Below are positions 2,809 to 40,807 of a stretch of DNA of 44,379 nt, one piece after another. Numbering within the stretch: the first letter of the stretch is position 1; every line of letters begins with the position of its first letter. The position numbers were made by a program, and so were the translations under genes. The stretch comes from Clostridiales bacterium (GTDB taxonomy: Bacteria; Bacillota; Clostridia; Christensenellales; JAISNN01): NCBI GenBank assembly GCA_031275485.1, contig JAISOS010000040.1:1-44379 (forward strand), given 5' to 3'. A model generated the notes under the pieces. The model did no database searches. It saw only the letters and a program-made list of their open reading frames with translations, and was not told the origin of the DNA.

Positions 2809-2833
2809 TATTGCGAGGATTTTTTAAGGATTA

Positions 2834-2893
2834 CGCGGGGGAAGCCTTTTGTTTGCAAAAGGCTTCCCCCGCGTCTCTTATCCGAAAGGTTTT
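2834..2893 (-). repeat. Family-1 palindromic element, hairpin facing upstream gene
   Basis: CGCGGGGGAAGCCTTTTG TTTG CAAAAGGCTTCCCCCGCG, perfect 18-bp arms; flank CTCTTATCCGAAAGGTTTTG. Confidence 0.92.
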
Positions 2894-3380
2894 GATAAAA
2901 TTTATCGGATTTATAGGACTTATTTCTCAACCGACGTTTGATAGATTCGGCAAAGCGCGGCGATAGGTTTGGAAACGGGTCTGTCTATTACGGACGAGCG
3001 GGTACGGCGGCGCGGTTCGGGTTTTTCGGCGAGCGGGGAAATTAGCCGTTAAACTCTGAAAACCTTTCGGCAACTTCATTGATCTCGCGTTTATCGCCCG
3101 TTTATTTTTTTGCTTTATTTTGATTGCAAATTTTCCGAAAAAAGGCTATAATATTTAAAAGGCTAAGATAAATAAGGGATCGGCGGCGGTTATTTATATT
3201 TGCGGCGTTCGCTGTACGCGGGCTTTTGCCATATTCCGCGTAAAATTTAAACGCGGCGGTCGGTTTGGGCGGAATCGTTAAAATACGTTAAAGTTTTTTT
3301 GAAAATAGGCGCGTGAAAATCTTTTTTCCGCAAACTCTTGCCGCTACGGACGGTTTAAACGGCGCCGTAATAAAACGCTT

Positions 3381-3435
3381 AAAGTTTTTTGGAAAGGGTG
3401 CGGGGGTGGGGAAACCTTTTGCGAACAAAAGGTTT
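3381..3435 (+). repeat. Family-1 palindromic element upstream of aminotransferase
   Basis: AAAGTTTTTTGGAAAGGGTGCGGGGGTGGGGAAACCTTTTGCGAACAAAAGGTTTCCCCGCCGCG. Confidence 0.9.
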
Positions 3436-3474
3436 CCCCGCCGCGTAAAGCTCTTTAATAAAAAAGGAAAACCT

Positions 3475-4815: not shown

Positions 4816-4904
4816 TGCGCCCGCATTTTTTTGCTTTTACATTCGCTTGTCAAATAAATTGTTAACGCGCGTTTTGCTTGAATGACGGTCATAAAAACAC
4901 ATTT

Positions 4905-4965
4905 AAGTTTTTTGGAAAGGTGCGCGGGGGGAAGAACTTTTATAAACAAAAAGTTTTTCCCCGCG
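4905..4965 (+). repeat. Family-1 palindromic element upstream of tyrS
   Basis: AAGTTTTTTGGAAAGGTGCGCGGGGGGAAGAACTTTTATAAACAAAAAGTTTTTCCCCGCG. Confidence 0.9.
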
Positions 4966-5005
4966 AAAAAAAGTAAAAAAAACGGTAAAGGGAGAACGGA
5001 ATTTA

Positions 5006-10058: not shown

Positions 10059-10442
10059 AAGACGTAAAAAAGCGGTTAAATGAAACGAAAACCGCAGTCC
10101 GTTGCTTTGGGAAAAGCGATAAAGCGTACGGAATAAAGGTGGCGGAAAAACATAAAAACGGTAGCTTTTTGAGAAAAAAGGCAATAAAAAGTGCGGGAAC
10201 GGCGGTTATTTTAACGTGAAAAGCACGTTAAAAATTGTGCGGGAAATTATATAAAATATGTAAAAAACGCGCGGAAAATTGTGTAAAAAACACGTAAAAC
10301 GCATGAAAGGCAAGTGAAAAACGCGCAAAAAAACATGTGGAAAAGCGTGTGAAAAATGTGAAAAAACGCATAAAAAACGGAGTGAAAAATTGCGTAAAAA
10401 ATGCGCGGAAAACGCGGTGAAAATTGCGGGGAGCGGGACGGA

Positions 10443-10796: not shown

Positions 10797-10816
10797 TTTG
10801 TTAAAGGGGATTCATT

Positions 10817-10875
10817 CGGGGGAAACCTTTTCTCGGAAGAAAAGGCTTTCCACCGCGCCCCTTTCCAAAAGACCC
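10817..10875 (-). repeat. Family-1 palindromic element downstream of yraN
   Basis: CGGGGGAAACCTTTTCTCGGAAGAAAAGGCTTTCCACCGCGCCCCTTTCCAAAAGACC. Confidence 0.88.
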
Positions 10876-11082
10876 CGATGTAATATGCAATATGTATTAT
10901 GTATATATACGCTAAGTTAATAAACCGCGCGCCGCGGCGGCTTTGCACAAAAGACGGGAAACTCTTTGGAACACGCTCCGTCCGCTAACGGGGACGCTCC
11001 TTTTTAAAGAGAGAGGCTTTGACGATACGGTACTTCGTTTGATTTGAACGTACTTAGTTGAGATAAACCGAATAAAGCGTCG

Positions 11083-11142
11083 GTTTTTTTGGAAAGTGGG
11101 GCGGGGGAAAATCTTTTGTTCACAAAAGGTTCTCCCCCCGCG
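11083..11142 (+). repeat. Family-1 palindromic element upstream of pyrK
   Basis: GTTTTTTTGGAAAGTGGGGCGGGGGAAAATCTTTTGTTCACAAAAGGTTCTCCCCCCGCG. Confidence 0.9.
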
Positions 11143-11193
11143 TAAATCCCCATTCAAAAAATAAAATAAAAAATGAAAAAAGGAGGATTTTTA

Positions 11194-11964: not shown

Positions 11965-12878
11965 CGTACAATCCTATGGAGGTCAATATTTGCGGCGTTA
12001 GTTTTAAAAATCCCGTCATCGCGGCGAGCGGCACGTTTTCCTTCGGCTTCGAATTTTCTAAGCTGTACGATATAGACAGGCTGGGCGGAATTTCCGTGAA
12101 GGGACTGACGCGCGAAAGGCGCGAGGGCAATCCGCCGCCGCGTATAGCCGAAACCTACGGCGGAGTTTTGAACGGCGTCGGGCTACAAAATCCCGGAATA
12201 GACGTGTTTATAAACAATATGATGCCGTTTTTGGAGACGAAAAGAACCGTCGTCATAGCCAATATTGCAGGAGATACCGAGGCCGACTATTGCTATATGG
12301 CGGAGCGGCTGTCGGAAACTAAGGTTTCGATTATCGAGCTGAATATATCCTGTCCGAACGTAAAGCGGGGAGGGTTAGCGTTCGGCGTAAAACCGGAGGA
12401 CGTCGGCGCGATTACGAAAGCGGTCAAAAAATACACCAAAAAGCCGCTGATGGTCAAACTGTCTCCCAACGTCGCCGATATAGCCGAAAACGCGAGAGCG
12501 GCGGAGGCGGGGGGCGCGGACGCGCTGTCCCTTATCAATACGGTGAGCGGTATGGCGGTGGACGCCGAAACGCGCCGCCCGATATTAAAAAACGTGACGG
12601 GCGGACTGTCCGGTCCCGCGATAAAGCCTATCGCGCTCGCTATGGTCTGGAAGGTCTATAACGCCGTAAAAATCCCGATAGTCGGCATGGGCGGAATTAT
12701 GAGCGCGTCGGACGCCGCGGAATTTATTTTGTGCGGCGCGTCGGCTGTGCAGGTCGGAACGGCGAATTTTGCAAACCCTTTGAGCGCGCCGCAAATAGCG
12801 GACGGACTCAGGAGATACGTAGATAAACACAAATTGAGAGATATTTCGGAATTAAAGGGCCGGCTGATCGTAGATTGA
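11961..12878 (+). CDS. pyrD: Dihydroorotate dehydrogenase B catalytic subunit
   Basis: NPVIAASGTFSFG, GLQNPGIDVFI, ELNISCPNVKRGG, GMGGIMSASDAAEFI; overlaps pyrK by 4 nt. Confidence 0.96.
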   Translation: MTYNPMEVNICGVSFKNPVIAASGTFSFGFEFSKLYDIDRLGGISVKGLTRERREGNPPPRIAETYGGVLNGVGLQNPGIDVFINNMMPFLETKRTVVIANIAGDTEADYCYMAERLSETKVSIIELNISCPNVKRGGLAFGVKPEDVGAITKAVKKYTKKPLMVKLSPNVADIAENARAAEAGGADALSLINTVSGMAVDAETRRPILKNVTGGLSGPAIKPIALAMVWKVYNAVKIPIVGMGGIMSASDAAEFILCGASAVQVGTANFANPLSAPQIADGLRRYVDKHKLRDISELKGRLIVD

Positions 12879-18520: not shown

Positions 18521-18543
18521 CGCCGCGCGCGGGGGGATTTTTT

Positions 18544-18602
18544 ACGGGGAGAAGCCTTTTGTTCACAAAAGGCTTCTCCCCGCGCCCCTTTCTAAAAAAC
18601 TT
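18544..18602 (-). repeat. Family-1 palindromic element downstream of flavodoxin
   Basis: ACGGGGAGAAGCCTTTTGTTCACAAAAGGCTTCTCCCCGCGCCCCTTTCTAAAAAACTT. Confidence 0.92.
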
Positions 18603-19086
18603 CGGCGTTTTAATAATTCCGTTCAAGCCTCGCGCCGCGTTTGAGAAATCGTATTAATATTTGAAAGATTGCATTAATAGCCGAAAGCGCGGAATTCGCA
18701 GGAGATTTTTACGGTCGTCGGGCGGTTTTTTGAAAGCGCGCCGGCGTTTTGCTTGCGCAAGACCGGTTCGTAACGGTCGGCGACGCAAATAAGCGCGAAA
18801 ATACAGCCGTTTAAAACTGCGGGAATAAGTTCTAAGCTTTTTGCGGAACACAAAAAGCGCCGCGCCGTTTTTTCCTTTAAAACCCTTTTTTCGACAAAGG
18901 GCTTTATTTTTTTTACCGCAAAAAATGCTATCATATCGGAGGACGCGAAAAAACCGCGGGATACGGAAGATAATAAAAAAAATAAGAAGAGGATAATCCG
19001 CGCCACGCGCGGCTTGGGCGTTCCGTAAAAAACGCGAACGCGCGCGGCGTAAAAAGCATAGTATAAAACGGAGTTGGGGTATATAG

Positions 19087-22980: not shown

Positions 22981-23180
22981 TTTATATAAAATAAAAAACC
23001 GAGGTTCCGTTCGAAACTGCGGAAACCGGTTCTATGCCTAATCGGAATTTTTTGTCCGGATAAGCGCGGAACGGACGCGTTTTTACCGCCGCGAACGCCT
23101 TTCCGCCGCATAGGGTAAAGCGGAAAAGTACTTTTCCGAACGGCTTGAAAACAAGCTCCGTTACGTAACGAAACGCCGAA

Positions 23181-23246
23181 TCTTTTGGAAAGGGCGCGTG
23201 GAGGAAGTGGAGGAAAGCTTTTTATTCTGAGAAAAAGTTTCTCGCG
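23181..23246 (+). repeat. Degenerate family-1 element upstream of spoIIIAB
   Basis: TCTTTTGGAAAGGGCGCGTGGAGGAAGTGGAGGAAAGCTTTTTATTCTGAGAAAAAGTTTCTCGCGA. Confidence 0.6.
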
Positions 23247-23291
23247 AGCGTTTTTATATTTTTACAAAAAAACAAAAAAGGCGGGTGGCGT

Positions 23292-24322: not shown

Positions 24323-24709
24323 ATGGATATTTTTAAGGTTGCGGGAGTGGGAGTTATCGGCGCGGTTATCGGCGTTTTTTTAAAGCACGGCAAGCCCGAA
24401 TTCGCGATTTTCGGCGTGATGGCGGCGGGGGTTATGATTTTGATTTTCGCGCTCTACTCGCTGACGGACGTGATCGGCGCGTTCGGCGCGTTAGTCGAAA
24501 AAACGAACATAGACGAACGCCTCTTTTCGGGAATTTTGAAAATCATAGGCATAGGCTATATCACCGAGTATTCCTCCGAGATTTGCAACGATATGAATTG
24601 CGGCTCAATCGCAAGTAAAATACAGCTAGCCGGTAAAATTACCGTTTTTTTAATGGCGGCGCCCGTTATGACCGCGTTTATAGATATAATTTCACGGCTG
24701 GCAATATGA
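24323..24709 (+). CDS. spoIIIAD: Stage III sporulation protein AD
   Basis: MDIFKVAGVGVIGAVIGVFLKHGKPEFAI; position after spoIIIAC. Confidence 0.92.
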   Translation: MDIFKVAGVGVIGAVIGVFLKHGKPEFAIFGVMAAGVMILIFALYSLTDVIGAFGALVEKTNIDERLFSGILKIIGIGYITEYSSEICNDMNCGSIASKIQLAGKITVFLMAAPVMTAFIDIISRLAI

Positions 24710-24746
24710 GCGCGCGGGAGGGGAGGGGATTTTAGATTTTTTAAGT

Positions 24747-24811
24747 CGCGGGAAGAGAGGGGGGCTTTCATGAAAAAAAGGTTTTTCCCCGCGTCCCTTT
24801 CTGAAAAACTT
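24747..24811 (-). repeat. Degenerate family-1 element downstream of spoIIIAD
   Basis: CGCGGGAAGAGAGGGGGGCTTTCATGAAAAAAAGGTTTTTCCCCGCGTCCCTTTCTGAAAAACTTT. Confidence 0.75.
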
Positions 24812-24829
24812 TAATATTTAGATATTAAT

Positions 24830-25001
24830 GCAGCCGTTAACGGAATATAATTTCGCGGGCTAAACGCTGCCTTTTTCACTGCAAGCGGTAAAAGGAACCG
24901 TTTTTTCATATTGTCCGAATAGAAAAAAAGAATCTTTACAACCGCTTACGGCAAAAAAATTAAACGCTTATCTTTGCCCGATACCGATTTATAACGCTAT
25001 A
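24830..25001 (+). repeat. Family-2 element, copy B
   Basis: GCAGCCGTTAACGG...CCGTTTTTTCATATTGTCCGAATAGAAAAAAAGAATCTTTACAACCGCTTACGGCAAAAAAATTAAACGCTTATC...CCGATTTATAACGCTAT. Confidence 0.8.
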
Positions 25002-25031
25002 GTTTGAATAGATCCGTTAAAACGCGCATTG

Positions 25032-25089
25032 AAGTTTTTTGGAAAGGGGCGCGGGGGAAGTCTTTTGTTCACAAAAGGTTTCCCCCGCG
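25032..25089 (+). repeat. Family-1 palindromic element upstream of spoIIIAE
   Basis: AAGTTTTTTGGAAAGGGGCGCGGGGGAAGTCTTTTGTTCACAAAAGGTTTCCCCCGCG. Confidence 0.93.
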
Positions 25090-25121
25090 AAAACTTTAAC
25101 AAAAAAAGTTTAGGTGATTGC

Positions 25122-26318
25122 ATGAATAAAAAACGCGGCGTAATTTTATTCCTTATTTTTCTCGCGGTTTTTACGTTCTTTACGTTTTCCGCAGTGCATG
25201 CCGCCGATTCGGATTCCGAAAAGAGCGCGGAGGAAATACGCGGGGAATTGGAAAAAAACGTGGGAAAACAGCTTGACGGCTTGGATCTTAGCGAATTGGA
25301 GGACTTTGTCAATTCTATTGACGGCGAGGGCGTCATAAGCGGCGGCGTTAAGGAATACATAAAAAAAATAATCGGCGGCGATTTGAGCGTCGGACCGGAG
25401 CCGTTTTTTGAAATCGCGGCGGATTTGGCGTTGCGCGATTTGGCCGCGATCGTGCCGATGATAGCCGCCGTAATCATAATCTGTCTGTTAAACGGATTCG
25501 TGTCGGGTATAACCTCGAATTTCCTGAAAAAGTCTACGCGCGAGACCGTGTTTTTTGTCTGCTACGCGCTGATAATCGTGATTTTATTGACGCGGGTCGT
25601 GAAATACGTCGAGTCCGTGGAAACGTTGCTGAACGATCTTTCGCGGCTTATGAATATAGTCTTTCCCGTGCTAATGACGCTTATGAGCGCGCTGGGCGGT
25701 AGCGTGGGAGCGGCGGCGTATCAGCCGCTTATGGCGGCGCTAGCCGTCGGCATAATATCGATAATCGACGCCGTGATAATGCCTTGCTTTATGGCGACTA
25801 TCATATTCTCGGTAGTCGGCAATATTTCGGAGACCGTGAAATTGGAGAGCTTCGGGAGCTTTTTTAAGAGCGCGGCGAATTGGTTGCTCGGGAGCGTTTT
25901 CGCGCTGTTTACGTTGTTCGTGACGGTCAAAGGCATAACGGGCGCGGCGATAGATTCGGTAACGGTTAACGCGGTCAAATTTGCCGTGTCGGGATACGTG
26001 CCCATACTCGGCGGTTATCTTTCGGACGGCTTCGATTTGATGTTGGGCAGTCTTGTGCTGATAAAGAACGCGGTGGGGCTTACGGGCGTGATCGTCATGC
26101 TCTCGACGGTACTCGCGCCTATCGTCAAAATAGCCGTATTCGCGCTCGCGCTGAAACTTACGGCGGCGATCGCCGAGCCTATCGCCGACAAGCGCGTTTC
26201 GCGTATGCTCTCGGGGCTGGCGTCGAATATGCGGTTGCTCGTCGCGGCGGTGGCGGGCACGGGCTTTATGTTTTTTCTGACGGTTATGCTGGTGATTATG
26301 ACTGCGAATATATTTTGA
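25122..26318 (+). CDS. spoIIIAE: Stage III sporulation protein AE
   Basis: Signal peptide and polytopic protein; position and length fit; true start at 25122 rather than the repeat-derived ORF start at 25029. Confidence 0.92.
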   Translation: MNKKRGVILFLIFLAVFTFFTFSAVHAADSDSEKSAEEIRGELEKNVGKQLDGLDLSELEDFVNSIDGEGVISGGVKEYIKKIIGGDLSVGPEPFFEIAADLALRDLAAIVPMIAAVIIICLLNGFVSGITSNFLKKSTRETVFFVCYALIIVILLTRVVKYVESVETLLNDLSRLMNIVFPVLMTLMSALGGSVGAAAYQPLMAALAVGIISIIDAVIMPCFMATIIFSVVGNISETVKLESFGSFFKSAANWLLGSVFALFTLFVTVKGITGAAIDSVTVNAVKFAVSGYVPILGGYLSDGFDLMLGSLVLIKNAVGLTGVIVMLSTVLAPIVKIAVFALALKLTAAIAEPIADKRVSRMLSGLASNMRLLVAAVAGTGFMFFLTVMLVIMTANIF

Positions 26319-26347
26319 TTATTTCGACGCGCCTCGTAATATTACCG

Positions 26348-26527
26348 AAGTTTTTTGAAAGGGAATACGGGGGCAAAACTTTTATTCAAAAAGATTTGCC
26401 CGCAACATAAGTTAAAAAGAAGGCGGCGGCGTTTCTCCGAAGGCCGGCGGACGCGCCTCTTTTGTTCGCGGCGGGAGGAATACGGTTCGCCGGAAGTTTT
26501 TGAAAAAAGGCTTTTCCCCCGCGTAAG
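26348..26527 (+). repeat. Family-1 long/compound form between spoIIIAE and spoIIIAF
   Basis: AAGTTTTTTGAAAGGGAATACGGGGGCAAAACTTTTATTCAAAAAGATTTGCCCGC...GGAAGTTTTTGAAAAAAGGCTTTTCCCCCGCGTAAG. Confidence 0.65.
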
Positions 26528-26564
26528 CCAAAATAAATAAGTTGAAACAAAAAGGAGCGGGTAT

Positions 26565-27050
26565 ATGATCGCTTGGATAATTTCCGTCGCGGGAGTCTCG
26601 GTTTTAACCGTGCTTCTCGATATAATTCTTCCCGAAGGACAGATGAATAAATACGTAAAGGGTGTGCTTTCGGTCGTCGTCACCGTAGTGATAATTTCAC
26701 CCGCCGCCGGGCTTTTAAAGGACGGTTTGGATTTTGAAAGGCTGTTCGGCTTTGCGCGGAACGTTTACGCCGTAGATCAAAATTACGTGTACGCCGTCTA
26801 TGCGGACGCTTACGGCGCGGAGGAGGCGCGCATGAAAAGCCTCCTTAGCGGCGCCGGCATAAAAATCGAGAGTGCGGACATAGTTTTCGATCCCGCGAAT
26901 AAAAGAAAAATTTTGTATGTCAATATTTTTTTAAGACAATCCGTCATTGACGGAGATTCCGCGCATATAAATATTAGCGACGGAATCAAGAAATTGATTT
27001 CGGAGAAATACGCGTTAAATAGGAATGACGTCAGAGTTCTGATAATTTAA
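26565..27050 (+). CDS. spoIIIAF: Stage III sporulation protein AF
   Basis: LTVLLDIILPEGQMNKYVKGVLSVVVTVVIISP; position. Confidence 0.92.
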   Translation: MIAWIISVAGVSVLTVLLDIILPEGQMNKYVKGVLSVVVTVVIISPAAGLLKDGLDFERLFGFARNVYAVDQNYVYAVYADAYGAEEARMKSLLSGAGIKIESADIVFDPANKRKILYVNIFLRQSVIDGDSAHINISDGIKKLISEKYALNRNDVRVLII

Positions 27051-27139
27051 AGGCGGTTTGACGGTAAAGGATAATTCGGTAACGTCTGATAGAGCAAACG
27101 CGGTAAACGTCATAATATTATTCGATCGGCGGTTTTAGT

Positions 27140-27745
27140 ATGGTCAATCAGCTTGTGGGAAAAAAAGAGGGAGAATCCGCCGCGGCAAATCCGTCCGCGG
27201 TTTCGATCGGATTGCGCGAGGCTTTTAATAAAATTAAGTCGCTCAAATACTTCAAAATTATAGCGGCTTCGGTTTTGCTCGCCGCCGCGATTTTGATTTT
27301 CGCCGCCGTCTATCAGGGCTACGGCGGAAAAACGGTTGCGGCTACGGCGGCGGATCCGTTGAGGGATTTGGAAACGAGATTGGCGTCTATCCTGTCGGAC
27401 ATAGAGGGCGCGGGAAAAGTGAACGTCATGATAATGTATGACGGAGGAATGGAAATCGTTACGGCGGAGTCCAAAAGCATCACGACAAACAAAACTACCG
27501 ACACGAGCGGCGGCGCGGACAGAATAACCGAAAGCGCCACGGAGACGGGCACGCCGATTATAATCAACGAAGGCGGCGTTTCCAAGCCGATTATACTGAA
27601 AGAGGTGATGCCCGAGATTTTGGGCGTTATGATCGTGGCGGAGGGCGCGGGCAGCGTAACCGTCCGAACCGAGCTTGTCAAAGCCGCGTCGAAAATTCTG
27701 AACGTTAATCCCTCGTTGATCGAGATATTCACGATGAAAAAATAA
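27140..27745 (+). CDS. spoIIIAG: Stage III sporulation protein AG
   Basis: Single TM; LETRLASILSDIEGAGKVNVMIMYDGG...ILNVNPSLIEIFTMKK. Confidence 0.93.
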   Translation: MVNQLVGKKEGESAAANPSAVSIGLREAFNKIKSLKYFKIIAASVLLAAAILIFAAVYQGYGGKTVAATAADPLRDLETRLASILSDIEGAGKVNVMIMYDGGMEIVTAESKSITTNKTTDTSGGADRITESATETGTPIIINEGGVSKPIILKEVMPEILGVMIVAEGAGSVTVRTELVKAASKILNVNPSLIEIFTMKK

Positions 27746-28004
27746 AAAACGCCGGACCTTAGCGCGGCGGAGATATTCGCGGCGCGGGAACGGAAAGCTC
27801 GGGTAATTCCGTAATTTAGATATTTAAAAAATCGAACGGGGAGACGCGGCGCGGAAATAGAAAAAAGAAAAATTTCAAGTCGGATATTCGCGGCTCGGGA
27901 TAAAAATAAAGCGGAAATAAAAACGTCGAGCCTTTCGTGAGCGCGGTACCCAAAATTCAAAAAACAATAAATAAAAAAATAAAAGGAGTTATAAAAAGAT
28001 AATT

Positions 28005-28484
28005 ATGGCAGCCAATAAGAAAAAAATCATTATTTTGTGCACAATGGTGGTATTGCTGATAGCGTCCGGCTATCTCAACTACGTTTTGACCCAAAAATCG
28101 CCCGCGGATACGGGCGGCGCCGAAACGGCGGTTTCGTCGTACTTCGCGGCGGCGAAAGCCGAACGCCAAACCACAAGAAATCAGGAGATTGTTTATTACG
28201 ACGCCATAATAGCCTCGTCGTCGTCCTCCGCGACCGAAAAAGAAGCCGCGACAACCGCGAAAATGAAAATACTCGCCTTTATGGAGAACGAGAACGGCAT
28301 CGAAACCTTTCTTTTCGGAAAGGGCTACGCCGCGTCGATAGCGTCTTGCAGCGACGGCGGTATATACGTTACCGTCGCCGACAACGACCTCTCCGCCGTT
28401 AAAGTCGCGGAAATCAAGAACTTCATAATCGAGCATACCGATTATGTGCTGGGGCAAATCAACATAAGGTCTTATCCCGTATAA
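28005..28484 (+). CDS. spoIIIAH: Stage III sporulation protein AH
   Basis: N-terminal TM, last gene of the spoIIIA cluster, SpoIIIAH-like C-terminus. Confidence 0.9.
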   Translation: MAANKKKIIILCTMVVLLIASGYLNYVLTQKSPADTGGAETAVSSYFAAAKAERQTTRNQEIVYYDAIIASSSSSATEKEAATTAKMKILAFMENENGIETFLFGKGYAASIASCSDGGIYVTVADNDLSAVKVAEIKNFIIEHTDYVLGQINIRSYPV

Positions 28485-28524
28485 CGTCTTATTGGGAATG
28501 GGGGCGGATGCGCGTTGAAAACGT

Positions 28525-28585
28525 GACGGGGGCGAAATCTTTTGAGAACGAAGGGTTTCGCCCCCGCGCCTTTTCAAAAAAACTT
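28525..28585 (-). repeat. Family-1 palindromic element downstream of spoIIIAH
   Basis: ACGGGGGCGAAATCTTTTGAGAACGAAGGGTTTCGCCCCCGCGCCTTTTCAAAAAAACTT. Confidence 0.88.
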
Positions 28586-28821
28586 GGACGATTGTTTTCT
28601 AATACGCCGCGCGGCGAAAAATAAATTTCAGCTTCATTTTGATAGATTTATTTTTCAAAAAGCGTTATAATTAAAGCCGTAATCGGGACGGCGTCTAAGA
28701 AACGGCTTTATTCGGAAAATAAGAAATAAAAAGCGGGGCGTTCGCGCTCCGTATCGCTTTACGGACTCCGCGCCGAAAAGAGGGTAAAATTTGACGGAAA
28801 TATTAAATCGTTAAATCTTTA

Positions 28822-28891
28822 AAGTTTTTCGTAAAGGCGCGCGCGGGGGGCTTTTGTTTGCTCGCAAAAGGTTCCAAAAGGTTCGGCGCGG
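28822..28891 (+). repeat. Degenerate family-1 element upstream of yqzL-like gene
   Basis: AAGTTTTTCGTAAAGGCGCGCGCGGGGGGCTTTTGTTTGCTCGCAAAAGGTTCC. Confidence 0.65.
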
Positions 28892-29081
28892 AGTAAATCT
28901 TAACGCGAAAGGGTTTTCCCCGCGCAAGTTTTTAAAAGAATACGCGAATATTTTTCGGTTTCCGGCACATTCTATTAGTGAACCGATAACGGCGCGATTG
29001 TTTTTGGGAACGCCTTTTAAGGACGGACCTAAAAGTAAAAGGGTCTTTGAAGGTTCGTCTAATAAAGGCGGGCAGTTTTTT

Positions 29082-29204
29082 ATGGGAAACGAAAAAAAGC
29101 TTTGGGACATTTTTGCGGCGACGGGAAATCCGTGCGTGTACAGGCTCTATAAGGCGGTGAATAACGCCGGAATGCCGACGCGTAGAAGATTAAAAGAAAA
29201 GTAA
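29082..29204 (+). CDS. YqzL-like small protein
   Basis: 40 aa MGNEKKLWDIFAATGNPCVYRLYKAVNNAG...; similar to YqzL (LW..F..TG....Y..YK); located upstream of recO as in other Firmicutes. Confidence 0.7.
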   Translation: MGNEKKLWDIFAATGNPCVYRLYKAVNNAGMPTRRRLKEK

Positions 29205-29705
29205 AACGGGTTTTTTACCGCCCTTACCCCGCGCGACGGCGCGGAGCCGCGGCGGGGTAAGGAAAAAGGCGGTCTAACGTATGTGCCGACGCGTAAAAAA
29301 AGCGGGCAACCGCCGCGCGATTCAGTTCGCGGCGATCGCCAGAGAAAAAATTAAACGTATTTTTACCGCCCGTATCGCGGCATTGCGCCGCTATGCGATA
29401 AGGAAAAGGCGGTTCCGTCGAACGCGGACCGTTAAAAACGGCGAGGCGCGAAAACGCGGAGCGGGGATTAAGCCCGTTCGCGGCGACAGGCTTAACAGCG
29501 GCGGCGCCGACGCCTTTCGTTTCGGCGGTTCGGCGGTTTGAGATAGATGACGGTCGGCGGCAAACGGAAAAAAGATATTGCGCCGGAGCGGTCCCAAACG
29601 GAAAAACCTTGCGGAAATTACGGCGGTAACGGCCGCTCGTGAAATTTACGGCGGCGACGGCCGCCGCTCTAAAATTCGCATGGAATAAAAATACGGAGAA
29701 TTATA

Positions 29706-30506
29706 ATGGACGGAATTAAACTGAACGCGCTTTGCGTAAGGGCTGTCGATTATAAGGACAACAAGACGCTGCTCACCTTGTGCACGGCGGAGAAGGGTAA
29801 AATCAACGCTTCGATAAGAGGAGTCAAATCCGAAAAGTCAAAGCTGAGATTCGCCGCTTCTCTTTTGTGCTTCGGCGAATATATTCTGAACGAAAAAAAC
29901 GGCTATTATACCGTCGTAAATTGCACTCCGATAGACGGTTTTTACGAGGTAAGGAAGGACGTCGAGAGGCTTTACGCCGCGCTCGCCGCGATTGAAATTC
30001 TAGACAAAATTACGGAGGAAAATTCGGACGTTTCCGGGCTTTTGTTTTCCTGCTTAAACGCCTTGAAGGAAATCGCTTACGGAACGCCGCCGCTCCGCGC
30101 GCTTTTGGAATATACGCTGAAAACCGCCGCCGAATGCGGCTACGCCCTCAATTTGAAAATTTGTCCGAACTGCGGCGCGCCCGTCTCGCGCGAATATTTC
30201 GACGCGGAAAACGGCGGCGGAACATGCGCGGGATGCCGATCGCGGAACGCCGCGCCTATCTCGCGCGGGGCTTACGGATTGTTATACCGTATCGTATACG
30301 GCGTGAACGGAGAAGATAGCGGCGAAAATTTAAGCGGCGGGAATATTAACGGCTTAAAGGATAAAAGCGACGATGAAACGAAAAAGAATCAAGCGGATGC
30401 GGAGGAAAAATATACGCGGGAGGGGCTTAAATTAATGCATAAATATTTTTCCGTCTGCGCCGACGCGAGAATCAATGCGCTCGGTCAGCTTTTGACTCTG
30501 TATTGA
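29706..30506 (+). CDS. recO: DNA repair protein RecO
   Basis: LNALCVRAVDYKDNKTLLTLCTAEKGKINASIRGVKSEKSKL; CPNCGAP...CAGC zinc motif. Confidence 0.92.
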   Translation: MDGIKLNALCVRAVDYKDNKTLLTLCTAEKGKINASIRGVKSEKSKLRFAASLLCFGEYILNEKNGYYTVVNCTPIDGFYEVRKDVERLYAALAAIEILDKITEENSDVSGLLFSCLNALKEIAYGTPPLRALLEYTLKTAAECGYALNLKICPNCGAPVSREYFDAENGGGTCAGCRSRNAAPISRGAYGLLYRIVYGVNGEDSGENLSGGNINGLKDKSDDETKKNQADAEEKYTREGLKLMHKYFSVCADARINALGQLLTLY

Positions 30507-30636
30507 CGCGTAATTTTACCGTAAATCCGACGCGGGGTCAGCCGTAATTCCAACCGTTATTTTATTGCGGACTTACGGCGCGGAGGCACAATTTTACCGT
30601 AGGGTTACGCTGAAGTTCACGAATTTTTAATTATCA

Positions 30637-30694
30637 AAGTTTTTCGGCAAGGGGCGCGGGGAAAACCTTTTGTTCACAAAAGGTTTTCCCCGCA
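30637..30694 (+). repeat. Family-1 palindromic element at 3' side of murG
   Basis: AAGTTTTTCGGCAAGGGGCGCGGGGAAAACCTTTTGTTCACAAAAGGTTTTCCCCGC. Confidence 0.93.
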
Positions 30695-30728
30695 TAATTT
30701 TTAAGAAGAAAAAAAGAAAAAATAAAAA

Positions 30729-31844
30729 TCATACCTCCCGTTTATCCGCGATTCGGTATAAGAGCGAGGCGATTTTTTTGTTCGGATTTTCAAAGGCGGC
30801 GATCGGTTTCGGTTCGGGACGGGCGAGTAGCTCGGCGGCGTATCGGGGAAGGGTTTTTTCGTTCATATTTTCCTGCGGGAGAACCGCCGCGCCGTATTTT
30901 TTTGAGTAATATTCGGCGTTCAGGATTTGATCGCCCCGCGAGACGGTTTTTGGCAGGGGAATGAAAAGCGTTTTTTTGTTCAGCGCGAACAATTCCGCCG
31001 CCGTCGCCGCGCCCGCCCGCGAAATAACCGCGTCCGCCGCCGCGAAAAACAGTCCGATTTCGTCTACATAGCCGAATTGCCGGTAGTTCGCGCCGGTTAT
31101 GCCGGGGTTGCCGGTTTTTCCCGTCAGATGCAGAACATAGGCGAGGGAGGCGAGTGCGCCGAGACATTTGTAAACGCATTCGTTTATACTTTGCGCGCCC
31201 GAACTCCCGCCCGTAATAAGCAGCGCGCGCATGCCGTCCGGGATTCCGAGAGCGCGGCGGGCCGCTCCCTTTTCGTAACGGAAAAGCTCCTCTCTGACGG
31301 GCGCGCCCGTATGGATATATTTGCGGTTCGCGGCGTATTTTTCATTCTCGAAGCTCAAAAAAATCCGTTTGCAGAAGGGCGCGCAGAGTTTGTTCGCTGC
31401 GCCGAGCGTCATGTCCGATTCGTGAGCCACTACGGGAATCCTTAAGGCGCCCGCGGCAAGCGCGGACGGCAAGGCCGCGTAGCCGCCCTTCGAATACAAA
31501 ACGTCGGGCCGCAATTCCTTTAAAATCCGCGCGGCTTCCGCGACGGCGCGGGGCAATACGACCGGGATTTTGAGATTTTTCAAGGGTTTTGCCCTGTCGA
31601 ATTTGACCGCCGCCGTCGGATAAAACGGAACGCCGTACTTTTTGGCGAACGATTTTTCAAGCCCGCCGCTTTTTTCGTAAAAGCCGTCTCCCACGCTTTC
31701 GCTTTCGTCTCCCGTCTCCTTTCCGCTTTTGATCCCGCCGCCGATATAGTAGATTTTACCGAATAGTTTTCTTAATTCCGGGAGGAGAGAAATATTCGGC
31801 GTGATATGTCCGGCGGTTCCCCCGCCCGTCAATACTATCGTCAT
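30729..31844 (-). CDS. murG: UDP-N-acetylglucosamine-N-acetylmuramyl-(pentapeptide) pyrophosphoryl-undecaprenol GlcNAc transferase
   Basis: MTIVLTGGGTAGHITPNISLLPEL, GGYAALPSALAA, HESDMTLGAANK, SRAGAATAAELFA; ATG at 31844 with GAAAGGAG RBS; the upstream ORF extension is repeat-derived. Confidence 0.95.
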   Translation of the reverse strand: MTIVLTGGGTAGHITPNISLLPELRKLFGKIYYIGGGIKSGKETGDESESVGDGFYEKSGGLEKSFAKKYGVPFYPTAAVKFDRAKPLKNLKIPVVLPRAVAEAARILKELRPDVLYSKGGYAALPSALAAGALRIPVVAHESDMTLGAANKLCAPFCKRIFLSFENEKYAANRKYIHTGAPVREELFRYEKGAARRALGIPDGMRALLITGGSSGAQSINECVYKCLGALASLAYVLHLTGKTGNPGITGANYRQFGYVDEIGLFFAAADAVISRAGAATAAELFALNKKTLFIPLPKTVSRGDQILNAEYYSKKYGAAVLPQENMNEKTLPRYAAELLARPEPKPIAAFENPNKKIASLLYRIADKREV

Positions 31845-31885
31845 GAAAGATACTCCTTTCGGAGATTTTTTGAAAACGGGATTTA

Positions 31886-31947
31886 TGCGGGGAAAACCTT
31901 TTCTTGGGAAAAAAGGTTTTCCCCGCGCGCCCTTCCAAAAGACCCCT
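31886..31947 (-). repeat. Family-1 palindromic element at 5' side of murG
   Basis: TGCGGGGAAAACCTTTTCTTGGGAAAAAAGGTTTTCCCCGCGCGCCCTTCCAAAAGACCCC. Confidence 0.92.
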
Positions 31948-32508
31948 GTCATTTTTTATACTCAAATTGCGCGGCTGACGTAAAAAGCGTTGTTTGCCGT
32001 CGTAATCCGCGTCATAGATAGACGTTAAGCGCCGCCGCCGGAAAGTATACCTGCCCGGCAAAAATTTTTGTTTACGGAATTTTGAACGGCTTTAAAAGCT
32101 AAAAACCGTAGGAAAAGCGAACCTTGCGGCGTCGCCGCGCGGGGAACGTTTTCGATTGCTTTAAATCCTAAAAGCCGTCAAAATTCCGTAAACGGACACG
32201 GCTGAACGGTATTTAACCGCGAGGGAAACGTTTCGTCAATTTTGACGCGAAAACCGCGAAAGCCGCGAAAATCGCAAAAAAACCCGCGCCGTTTAATTTT
32301 TAACGTTGTTTTTGTTGCCATATTTTCGCCTTTGTGATATACTTTAATGCGTTATATATTCGGCGTGCTTTGATACGCTTAATTTGCCCTTAACTATATA
32401 ATTTTATTCCTTTTACAAGCGATATGTTACGGTTGCGGACGCGATACTTTGCCGAAATATATCACGGTACCGTAAAGCTTAACGGGTGTGAAGCGAATGT
32501 CGCGTATT

Positions 32509-32725: not shown

Positions 32726-33913
32726 ATGAACAAAAAAACCGTTAAAGACGTAAACGTAAAGGGAAAGACCGTTTTGGTAAGAGTCGATTTCAACGTACCG
32801 ATAAAAGACGGCGTAATCACGGACGCCACCCGAATAGAGGGAGCAGTTCCGACGATTCGATATCTCTCGAATAACGGAGCGAGGGTCGTGCTTTGCTCGC
32901 ATCTCGGGAGACCGAAGGGCGAATTCAATCCGAAATATACTTTGAAGCCCGCCGCCGAAAAGCTGAGCGAATATCTGGGCAAAAAAGTCGGGTTCGCCGC
33001 CGACGTTATAGGCGCGGAGGCGAAAGCCGCGAAGGCGGCTTTGAAGGACGGCGACATAGTTCTTCTTGAGAACCTGCGTTTCCACAAAGAGGAGGAGGCG
33101 AACGACAAGGATTTCTGCAAGGCGCTCTCGGAGGGTATAGACATGTATGTCAACGATGCTTTCGGCACCGCGCACCGGGCTCACGCGTCTACGGCGGGGG
33201 TGTCGCAGTACGGCTTTGTAAAGACCGCCGTCGCGGGTTTTTTGATTGAAAAGGAATTGGCTGTCATGGGGGGCGCGCTCGAGACTCCTAAGCGTCCTTT
33301 CGTCGCGATTTTGGGCGGCGCGAAGGTTTCCGACAAAATAGGTGTCATAAACAACCTTTTGGAAAAGGTGGACGCGCTGATAATCGGCGGCGCGATGGCG
33401 TACACCTTTATGAAAGCGCAGGGCAGGAGCGTGGGTTCGTCGCTTTGTGAAAACGACAAAATAGAGCTTGCGGCCGAGCTTATCAAAAAGGCGGAAATCA
33501 AAAAAGTCAAATTTCTGCTTCCCGTCGATAACAAAATCGCCGACGCTTTCGCGAACGACGCTAACCAAAAAATCGCCGAAGGCAATATCCCCGACGGCTG
33601 GCAGGGCTTGGACATAGGACCGAAAAGCGTAAAGCTTTTTTCCGACGCTATAAAGGACGCGAAAACCGTGATTTGGAACGGACCGATGGGCGTTTTCGAG
33701 TTCGAGAACTTCGCGGCGGGCACAAAGGCGGTCGCGGAGGCGCTGAGCAAGACCGACGCGGTTACGATTATAGGCGGCGGAGACAGCGCGGCGGCGGTTA
33801 CGCAGCTGGGGTATGCGGGCAAGATGACGCATATCTCGACGGGCGGCGGCGCGAGTCTGGAGTTTCTGGAAGGGCTGGAACTGCCGGGCGTGGCTTGTCT
33901 TAACGACAAGTAG
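32726..33913 (+). CDS. pgk: Phosphoglycerate kinase
   Basis: [51 protein letters not shown] at 32726. Confidence 0.98.
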
Positions 33914-33938
33914 AATATCAAGAATCAAGAAGACATTA

Positions 33939-33997
33939 AAGTTTTTTGGAGATGGGCGCGGGAGGAACCTTTTTGTTCGCAAAAGGTTCCTTTCCGA
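33939..33997 (+). repeat. Family-1 palindromic element after pgk
   Basis: AAGTTTTTTGGAGATGGGCGCGGGAGGAACCTTTTTGTTCGCAAAAGGTTCCTTTCCG. Confidence 0.88.
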
Positions 33998-34040
33998 ATA
34001 GGTCTTTAGGAAATTAGAATTTTTTGAACAATGAACTAGA

Positions 34041-34186
34041 CGGCGGCGCGGGTGCGGAATTTCCGGAAGGACCGGAATTGCCGGGCGCCGCTTGCCTGAA
34101 CGACAAGTAAAATATCAAGAAGACATTAGAGTTTTTGGATAGGGGCGCGGGGGGAACCTTTTTGTTTGCAAAAGGTTTCCCCCGCG
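34041..34186 (+). pseudogene. Decayed tandem copy of the pgk 3' end plus adjoining family-1 hairpin
   Basis: Encodes GGAGAEFPEGPELPGAACLNDK*, matching the pgk C-terminus [22 protein letters not shown], followed by a shared AATATCAAGAAGACATTARAGTTTTTGGA. Confidence 0.88.
34127..34186 (+). repeat. Family-1 palindromic element upstream of tpiA
   Basis: AGAGTTTTTGGATAGGGGCGCGGGGGGAACCTTTTTGTTTGCAAAAGGTTTCCCCCGCG. Confidence 0.92.
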
Positions 34187-34220
34187 TAAACTTAAAAAAA
34201 TTTAAAAAGGAGTTTATCTA

Positions 34221-36761: not shown

Positions 36762-36791
36762 AAAAAGCGGATTTTTTTATTTTAAAAATTT

Positions 36792-36842
36792 TTGCGTGGA
36801 ATGAACAAAAGGTCCCCCCCGCGTCACTTTCCCAAAACCTCG
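36792..36842 (-). repeat. Partial family-1 element downstream of gpmI
   Basis: AATGAACAAAAGGTCCCCCCCGCGTCACTTTCCCAAAACCTCGG; left arm missing. Confidence 0.6.
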
Positions 36843-37177
36843 GTATTTTTATGCTTGCGTAAATAGGCATTGTGAGAGTAAAGTGAAAGCCTTTGGAAAA
36901 CGGGGTTGAAAACCGTTGAAAAAATGCGACGGGAAACCGTTGAAAAAGCGGTTTAAAATGTGAGAAAACGAGGTCGAAAGCGCAGAACACAGGATAAAAA
37001 CCGCTAAAAATGAGGTGAAAATTACTGAAAACGCGGCTTAGAAACGCAAAAAATATGTTTTCACATTGTGAAAACGCGGGAAAAACGGCGAAACGACAAG
37101 GTCGAGAACCGCCGAAAACGCGCTTTTGTATTGCGTAAAGCGTAGCTCGTTACGTTGAAGGATAAAAACGAAATAAA

Positions 37178-37684
37178 ATGCGGTACGATACAAATATAAT
37201 TAATATAGTTCTGTACGAACCGGAAATTCCGCAGAATACGGGAAATATCGTGCGTACCGCCGTTGCGACGGGCGGCGCGGTGCATCTTATAAAGCCGCTC
37301 GGTTTCGAGATTTCCGACAAACGTTTAAAGCGCGCGGGTTTGGACTACTGGAAAGACGCGAAAATCTTTCTTTACGAGGATTTCGCCGATTTTAAGTCGA
37401 AAAATCACGGACGCTGTTTTTTTGCGTCCACAAAGGCGGCGAAGCGCTACGACGCGGTTAGATACGAGAACGGCGATTGTATTATATTCGGTCCCGAATC
37501 ACGGGGCTTAGACGAGAAATTGCTACGGGAGAACTACGCCGCCGCCGTCCGCATACCTATGGTTAAAAATAACCGCTCGCTCAATCTTAGCAACAGCGTC
37601 GCCGTCATCGTCTACGAGGCGCTGAGACAATGGAATTTTTTGGGGCTGGAAACGGAGAGCGGTTTTTTTAAGAAGGATTTTTAA
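37178..37684 (+). CDS. trmL: tRNA (cytidine(34)-2'-O)-methyltransferase
   Basis: NIVLYEPEIPQNTGNIVRTA, IIFGPESRGLDEKLL, NRSLNLSNSVAVIVYEALRQ; SPOUT family. Confidence 0.93.
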   Translation: MRYDTNIINIVLYEPEIPQNTGNIVRTAVATGGAVHLIKPLGFEISDKRLKRAGLDYWKDAKIFLYEDFADFKSKNHGRCFFASTKAAKRYDAVRYENGDCIIFGPESRGLDEKLLRENYAAAVRIPMVKNNRSLNLSNSVAVIVYEALRQWNFLGLETESGFFKKDF

Positions 37685-37690
37685 AAGATA

Positions 37691-37749
37691 CGCGGCGGAA
37701 ACCCTTTGTTTACAAAAAGTTTCCGCCCGCGTTCCTTTCAAAAAATTTC
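37691..37749 (-). repeat. Family-1 palindromic element downstream of trmL
   Basis: CGCGGCGGAAACCCTTTGTTTACAAAAAGTTTCCGCCCGCGTTCCTTTCAAAAAATTTC. Confidence 0.88.
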
Positions 37750-38164
37750 AAATTTTAACGATTTTGTTTAAAATGCGGCGCGAATAAACGGGTCTTTCTT
37801 GTGAAAAATCAGGTTTTTGCCGTGTTCAAAAGGGCAGGTTTCGCCGCGTTCTAGTTTAAAGGAGGCGGCGAATAAGGGAATAAGGCGAGATTTTCTTTCA
37901 AACAGGGGAATTTTTGCCGCGAACGGTACTGCGGTTAGTTCGATATACGCGCGCCGAAAAAGTCCTCCGGTCGGATTTGTGGATAAAACGCCGTGAAAAA
38001 TTCGGAGTAAAGATCCGAAAAATCAAAAAAGTTGAAAAATACGCCAGAAATCGCTTGACATAGACGACGACGTATAATAGAAAAGCTCTATTAATAGGGG
38101 AATAATTGGGGAAATATCCTTATCGCAACCCCGCCTTAAAAAAAGAAACGACAGGAAAAAAACT

Positions 38165-40638: not shown

Positions 40639-40670
40639 GTTTTTTAGGGGGAGGGGAAGCGATGTTTATA

Positions 40671-40730
40671 CGTGGGGAAACCTTTTGCGTGCAAAAGGTT
40701 TCCCCACGCGCGCCCTTTCCCAAAAAACTC
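40671..40730 (-). repeat. Family-1 palindromic element downstream of MFS gene
   Basis: CGTGGGGAAACCTTTTGCGTGCAAAAGGTTTCCCCACGCGCGCCCTTTCCCAAAAAACT. Confidence 0.92.
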
Positions 40731-40807
40731 CGTCTTTATTATTATATTTATTACGCTTTCAAACGCGGCGTTGCCGGGCTTCGAACGCCGTTAAAAAAAA
40801 AGAACGG

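Follow-up and report, generated by a model that had tools for sequence, protein, structure and literature searches.

Copies of a repeat, termed Family 1, lie on both sides of a murG-like gene in a Clostridiales bacterium, and the hairpin of each copy faces the gene. Is this bracket a unit built around murG, or does every copy obey a placement rule by itself? The window analyzed was the whole stretch of 44,379 nucleotides (JAISOS010000040.1), one of the 92 contigs of a draft genome of 2.03 Mb that is ~91% complete.

Family-1 copies around murG

The initial annotation had listed sixteen copies, all of which were present in the window. A profile built from them found 25 copies, the main ones of which are given in Table 1. 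The initial annotation had also claimed that copies next to genes turn their hairpins toward the gene and that murG obeys this rule at both ends. For murG this was correct, with both hairpins inward and both flanks outward; it was the only gene in the window with copies at both ends. For the window at large, the rule held for the listed copies. Two exceptions to it and one copy near no gene had been left out of the list. The murG orthologues of the same genus carried no convincing Family-1 copies. No Rfam match in the window exceeded the gathering score, and sub-threshold matches in 24700-31990 were at chance level.

Table 1. Positions of Family-1 copies and of the murG-like gene in the window. 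'<' denotes a copy with the hairpin left and the flank right, and '>' its mirror image.
Feature	Positions	Strand	Remark
Family-1 copy 3' of gene ending 2808	2820-2898	-	
Family-1 copy near no gene	3281-3334		omitted from the initial list
Family-1 copy 5' of gene starting 3475	3372-3458	+	
Family-1 copy 5' of tyrS (start 5006)	4896-4968	+	
Family-1 copy 3' of gene ending 10796	10808-10884	-	'<>' pair with 11075-11150
Family-1 copy 5' of dihydroorotate dehydrogenase electron-transfer subunit gene (start 11194)	11075-11150	+	
Family-1 copy 3' of gene ending 18520	18538-18613	-	
Family-1 copy 5' of gene starting 23292	23171-23255	+	
Family-1 copy 3' of gene 24323-24709	24765-24819	-	'<>' pair with 25027-25103
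Family-1 copy 5' of spoIIIAE-like gene (start 25122)	25027-25103	+	top score in window
Family-1 copy, exception	26339-26405	+	flank toward upstream stop codon at 26318
Family-1 copy 3' of gene ending 28484	28518-28593	-	
Family-1 copy 3' of murG	30629-30707	+	flank 30637-30654, hairpin 30655-30694, hairpin toward murG stop
murG-like gene, 371 aa	30729-31844	-	best NCBIfam profiles are murG equivalogs, under the curated cut-off
Family-1 copy 5' of murG	31879-31954	-	hairpin ~31886-31927, flank ~31928-31945 pointing away from murG
Family-1 copy, exception	33930-34008	+	flank toward pgk stop 33913; inside tandem duplication of pgk 3' end
Family-1 copy 5' of tpiA-like gene (start 34221)	34120-34200	+	
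Family-1 copy 3' of phosphoglycerate mutase gene ending 36761	36780-36851	-	
Family-1 copy 3' of gene ending 37684	37678-37751	-	
Family-1 copy 3' of efflux transporter gene ending 40638	40665-40739	-	

Two other repeat structures were seen in the window. In a tandem duplication at 33844-34121, the 3' end of pgk (33844-33924) recurs at 34041-34121 (84% identity), and a Family-1 element follows each of the two repeats. An intergenic, A/T-rich, irregular tandem array of AAAAACGCGCAAAAAA-like units occupies 10230-10440.

Structure, polarity and turnover of Family 1

The listed copies were aligned to make a profile, which was iterated on 960 kb, and the sample was extended to 1.32 Mb of the home genome. 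Genes were called with a purpose-written hexamer-based caller, whose calls of small genes and of individual start codons are approximate. The sample contained 424 copies, two of them inside called genes; extrapolation gives about 650 copies per genome. The strand was ambiguous for only 12 copies.

The element is about 86 nt long. Its flank (AAGTTTTTTGGAAAGGGG) is conserved and is followed by a hairpin of ~18 bp and then by a tail rich in A. Conservation begins and ends abruptly over this span. From flank to tail, the consensus is ATAAAAACGTTGAAG TTTTTTGGAAAGGGG CGCGGGGGAAAACCTTTTG TTCA CAAAAGGTTTCCCCCGCG TAAATTTTAAAAAA, and it was identical for 5' and 3' copies. The flank is conserved in sequence. 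The stem is variable, and its changes partly compensate each other: double changes occurred in 8 of 10 modelled pairs, with 30 double-changed cells against 12.2 after shuffling, a value reached in none of 500 shuffles. The copies have A/T-rich ends and are highly diverged. Best-partner identity had a median of 69%, with a few pairs at 92%, and there was no near-identical set among the home-genome copies compared, so that recent movement was not visible. G-U pairs in the stem showed a sense-strand excess (293:219, permutation p = 0.002). This was rejected as a sign of RNA-level selection because the unpaired flank showed a similar strand bias. An element-borne promoter was also rejected, as TATAA enrichment was common to 5' and 3' copies alike.

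A genome-wide tally of orientation had been proposed in the initial annotation, and over 1.32 Mb it upheld the rule. Of 410 classifiable copies, 349 turned the hairpin and 61 the flank to the closest gene (p = 4e-50). The hairpin:flank ratio was 167:14 at 5' ends and 182:47 at 3' ends; by neighborhood, it was 143:41 (tandem 3'), 141:6 (tandem 5'), 39:6 (convergent 3') and 26:8 (divergent 5'). Within 60 nt of a gene, hairpin-side copies numbered 162 at 3' ends and 128 at 5' ends, and flank-side copies 38 and 8, respectively. Intergenic regions of at least 250 nt gave 307:36. Those shorter than 150 nt gave 12:16, but gaps of this size are filled by one copy, which leaves the rule undefined. Where an intergenic region held exactly two copies, 56 were arranged as '<>', 13 as '<<' or '>>', and none as '><'. 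The orientation rule is genuine and far above chance, and the idea of an element directed to gene boundaries stands together with it.

The stem foot was mostly 20-50 nt before the start codon or 10-40 nt after the stop codon, which is just beyond ribosome cover. Family-1 copies occurred at 425 of 1628 ends of protein genes (about a quarter) and at 1 of 32 free tRNA ends (p = 0.0016). The polarity at both starts and stops and the near absence at tRNA genes imply that something discriminates the coding side from the outer side, be it an insertion machine or selection acting on the ends of mRNAs.

A pattern scan detected the Family-1 motif in other Clostridia assemblies, and model searches of those assemblies gave from 9 to at least 150 copies per genome. 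The strict pattern was found in 0 of 290 other genomes of the class, and a low-sensitivity model search gave one or two matches in 2 of 146 other genomes of the class. The family is thus rare across the class yet abundant in several Clostridia, indicating a patchy distribution. The rule recurred in these genomes. In the congener G004, which has a diverged version of the element, the hairpin:flank ratio was 50:13, and the ratios in the unrelated gut Clostridia G044, G046 and G042 were 53:0, 27:4 and 19:3, respectively. Another congener, G003, had no copies in 290 kb, and a further one, G001, is likewise free of the element.

Copy positions turn over between species. Among 104 orthologue pairs of the home genome and G004, copy-bearing ends were shared at one 5' end and four 3' ends, which is the chance level. 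Compared with the copy-free G003, the median intergenic excess was 212 nt with one copy, 331 nt with two copies and 48 nt with none. Coding density was 0.72 in the home genome and 0.86 in G003. Junctions of a few tens of nucleotides in G003 were hundreds of nucleotides long in the home genome, and a lesser expansion was also seen without a Family-1 copy.

In G044, four 5' copies with a promoter-like match sit 35-43 nt downstream of the -10 box, which would place those copies within the 5' UTR. The number of promoter-like matches in G044 was near the shuffled expectation of 2.7, and the other genomes were likewise near theirs. In intergenic regions of G044, including 12347-12760 of locus L122, short and nearly perfect hairpins formed chains, and small hairpins were inserted where the flank meets the main hairpin. 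At loci L118-L124, the flank is bordered on its outer side, nearer the center of the intergenic region, by a second inverted-repeat family (GACAAAGTGTGCAGATTTGAA) that resembles a terminator in places.

Possible causes of the polarity

The arrangement at murG might suggest that the two copies work as a pair. The initial annotation had proposed that the 5' and 3' flanks of one mRNA anneal into a panhandle, circularizing or protecting the transcript. The consensus flanks are indeed complementary across 18 nt, and the own flanks of murG give about -25 kcal/mol. However, genes with copies at both ends numbered 37 against 29.5 expected (p = 0.10), bracketing of transcription units was likewise not significantly above chance, and own-gene flanks paired no more strongly than random ones (means of -18.4 and -19.9 kcal/mol, respectively). 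The murG bracket is what chance predicts, and pairing of this kind is highly improbable. An excess was found elsewhere: 47 tandem intergenic regions of at least 180 nt held both copies, versus 29.7 expected (p = 6e-5), which ties the association to the intergenic region rather than to the gene. This enrichment of '<>' pairs and the longer two-copy junctions would suit a composite MITE, in which the two copies form the terminal inverted repeats of a single insertion, making gene-facing hairpins trivial. Against it, most copies are single, '<>' spacers range mostly from ~50 to 440 nt, and neither a shared core nor two matching ends forming one unit were found. Copies sharing a gene or an intergenic region were no more alike than random ones (0.33 vs 0.35 for intergenic pairs), although the arms of a master element, if they diverged long ago, could give the same picture. 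We consider a composite MITE quite unlikely. Chance-level bracketing, unlike pairs and the unexceptional pairing of own flanks together argue that each copy is an independent unit. In the home genome, 28 of 60 '<>' spacers contained sequence repeated elsewhere in the genome, pointing to other repeat families between the copies.

Single copies could also act as one-way boundaries. The hairpin and the C-rich outward flank would halt RNA polymerase leaving the gene, or bind a polar roadblock protein. This would block sense transcription leaving at 3' ends as well as antisense transcription leaving at 5' ends. One rule would then cover the same outward polarity at both ends, and wrong orientation was rarest at 5' ends (14/181, vs 47/229 at 3' ends), at which a stop of the outward type would shut the gene off. 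Yet the U-tract of a rho-independent terminator was absent after the hairpin in both directions, and the lack of terminators beside 3' copies was not significant, either in the home genome (18/117 with and 27/120 without a 3' copy, p = 0.19) or in a second genome (4/18 vs 15/31, p = 0.13). An ordinary terminator was rejected on these two grounds, and a one-way boundary seems improbable. A stronger case can be made for insertion directed to gene edges, in which an enzyme places the hairpin end toward translated DNA, so that polarity is set on arrival and no functional selection is needed. Polarity was similar across profile-score classes (80:21 in the lowest quarter and 88:16 in the highest), positions turn over between congeners, junctions of 24-60 nt in the copy-free congener are expanded, and the family is patchy, with many copies in several distant Clostridia and none under the strict pattern in the 290 genomes. 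Counting against such insertion, the copies show no sign of recent movement, the home genome has no REP-type transposase (Y1_Tnp), and we know of no mechanism that reads gene edges at both ends. On balance we find it rather unlikely.

The most probable reading of Family 1 is a REP-like repeat, a hairpin with a tag, that builds up in the UTRs of mRNAs and owes its polarity to selection or to insertion at gene edges. A fuller version of this reading, to which we give a probability of roughly 0.4 as a whole, takes the hairpin as an exonuclease block retained by selection. Each copy, an asymmetric tag plus a hairpin, would act independently. Copies would be gained and lost between species, settle in the untranslated DNA edging protein-coding genes, and be retained only where the hairpin adjoins the ribosome-covered region with the flank outward. 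A transcribed hairpin in the UTR would then stop exonucleases just outside the coding sequence, 3'-to-5' exonucleases at the 3' side and RNase J at the 5' side. The polarity in five genomes, the stem covariation, the consensus shared by 5' and 3' copies and the longer copy-bearing junctions support it. The stem-foot distances, the near absence at tRNA genes and the -10 spacing in G044 also fit UTR hairpins, without proving transcription. Two results speak against it: polarity was not sharper in diverged, older copies, contrary to progressive purging, and copy-bearing gene ends were not common to congeners.

The flank and the hairpin may have different roles. RNAs from 5' and 3' copies are complementary, not identical, and a single-stranded flank motif therefore cannot act alike at both ends. 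This leaves three options for the flank: a role as double-stranded DNA in insertion or protein binding, a role as an RNA-RNA duplex, or a distinct role at each end. The duplex was not supported, and the flank is possibly insertion-related. The hairpin alone can act alike at both ends, which favors it as the retained function.

Comparison with known repeat families

Small intergenic repeats are usually regarded as orientation-neutral debris or as terminators. No description of the polarity rule was found in the literature, which is weak evidence of novelty since subscription papers were thinly covered. We tentatively entertain an as yet undescribed class of small repeats that would be inserted or retained by reading the borders of translated sequence at both gene ends, giving a strict inward polarity recurring in distant Clostridia.

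Pneumococcal BOX, RUP and SPRITE are likewise small structured repeats dispersed over a Gram-positive genome; BOX is modular and RUP has terminal inverted repeats, and the available part of the source describes no inward-facing rule (PMC3049150). Correia/NEMIS repeats of Neisseria resemble Family 1 as mobile intergenic repeats that fold into stem-loops near genes. They are defined by the terminal inverted repeats of a single element, with RNase III processing proposed (PMC2229807), whereas Family 1 consists of independent one-hairpin units. The enterobacterial ERIC/IRU and YPAL repeats are intergenic, structured and co-transcribed, and their orientation can decide mRNA effects; they are longer and differ in sequence, and the available part of that review describes no two-ended polarity rule of this kind (PMC2229807).

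The closest likeness is to REPs, which are small intergenic palindromes with an asymmetric tag at one end and hundreds of copies, frequently in opposite-orientation pairs and close to coding regions (PMC3733652). Family 1 is likewise an asymmetrically tagged, high-copy intergenic palindrome, as are REPs and REPINs. REPs carry GTAG or CGTC tags, and their reported locations are chiefly downstream of genes and between genes in tandem or convergent arrangement (PMC3733652). The Family-1 tag is instead ~18 nt long (AAGTTTTTTGGAAAGGGG), within a unit of ~86 nt that has a gene-facing polarity at 5' and 3' ends. No match to the REP transposase Y1_Tnp (PF01797) was found in the home genome (~91% complete), G004, G044 or G046. 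As it has neither the RAYT-REP tag sequence nor the Y1 transposase, Family 1 is a REP-like variant, not a REP, and its polarity rule offers a clean and testable entry point to the placement and retention of REP-like repeats.
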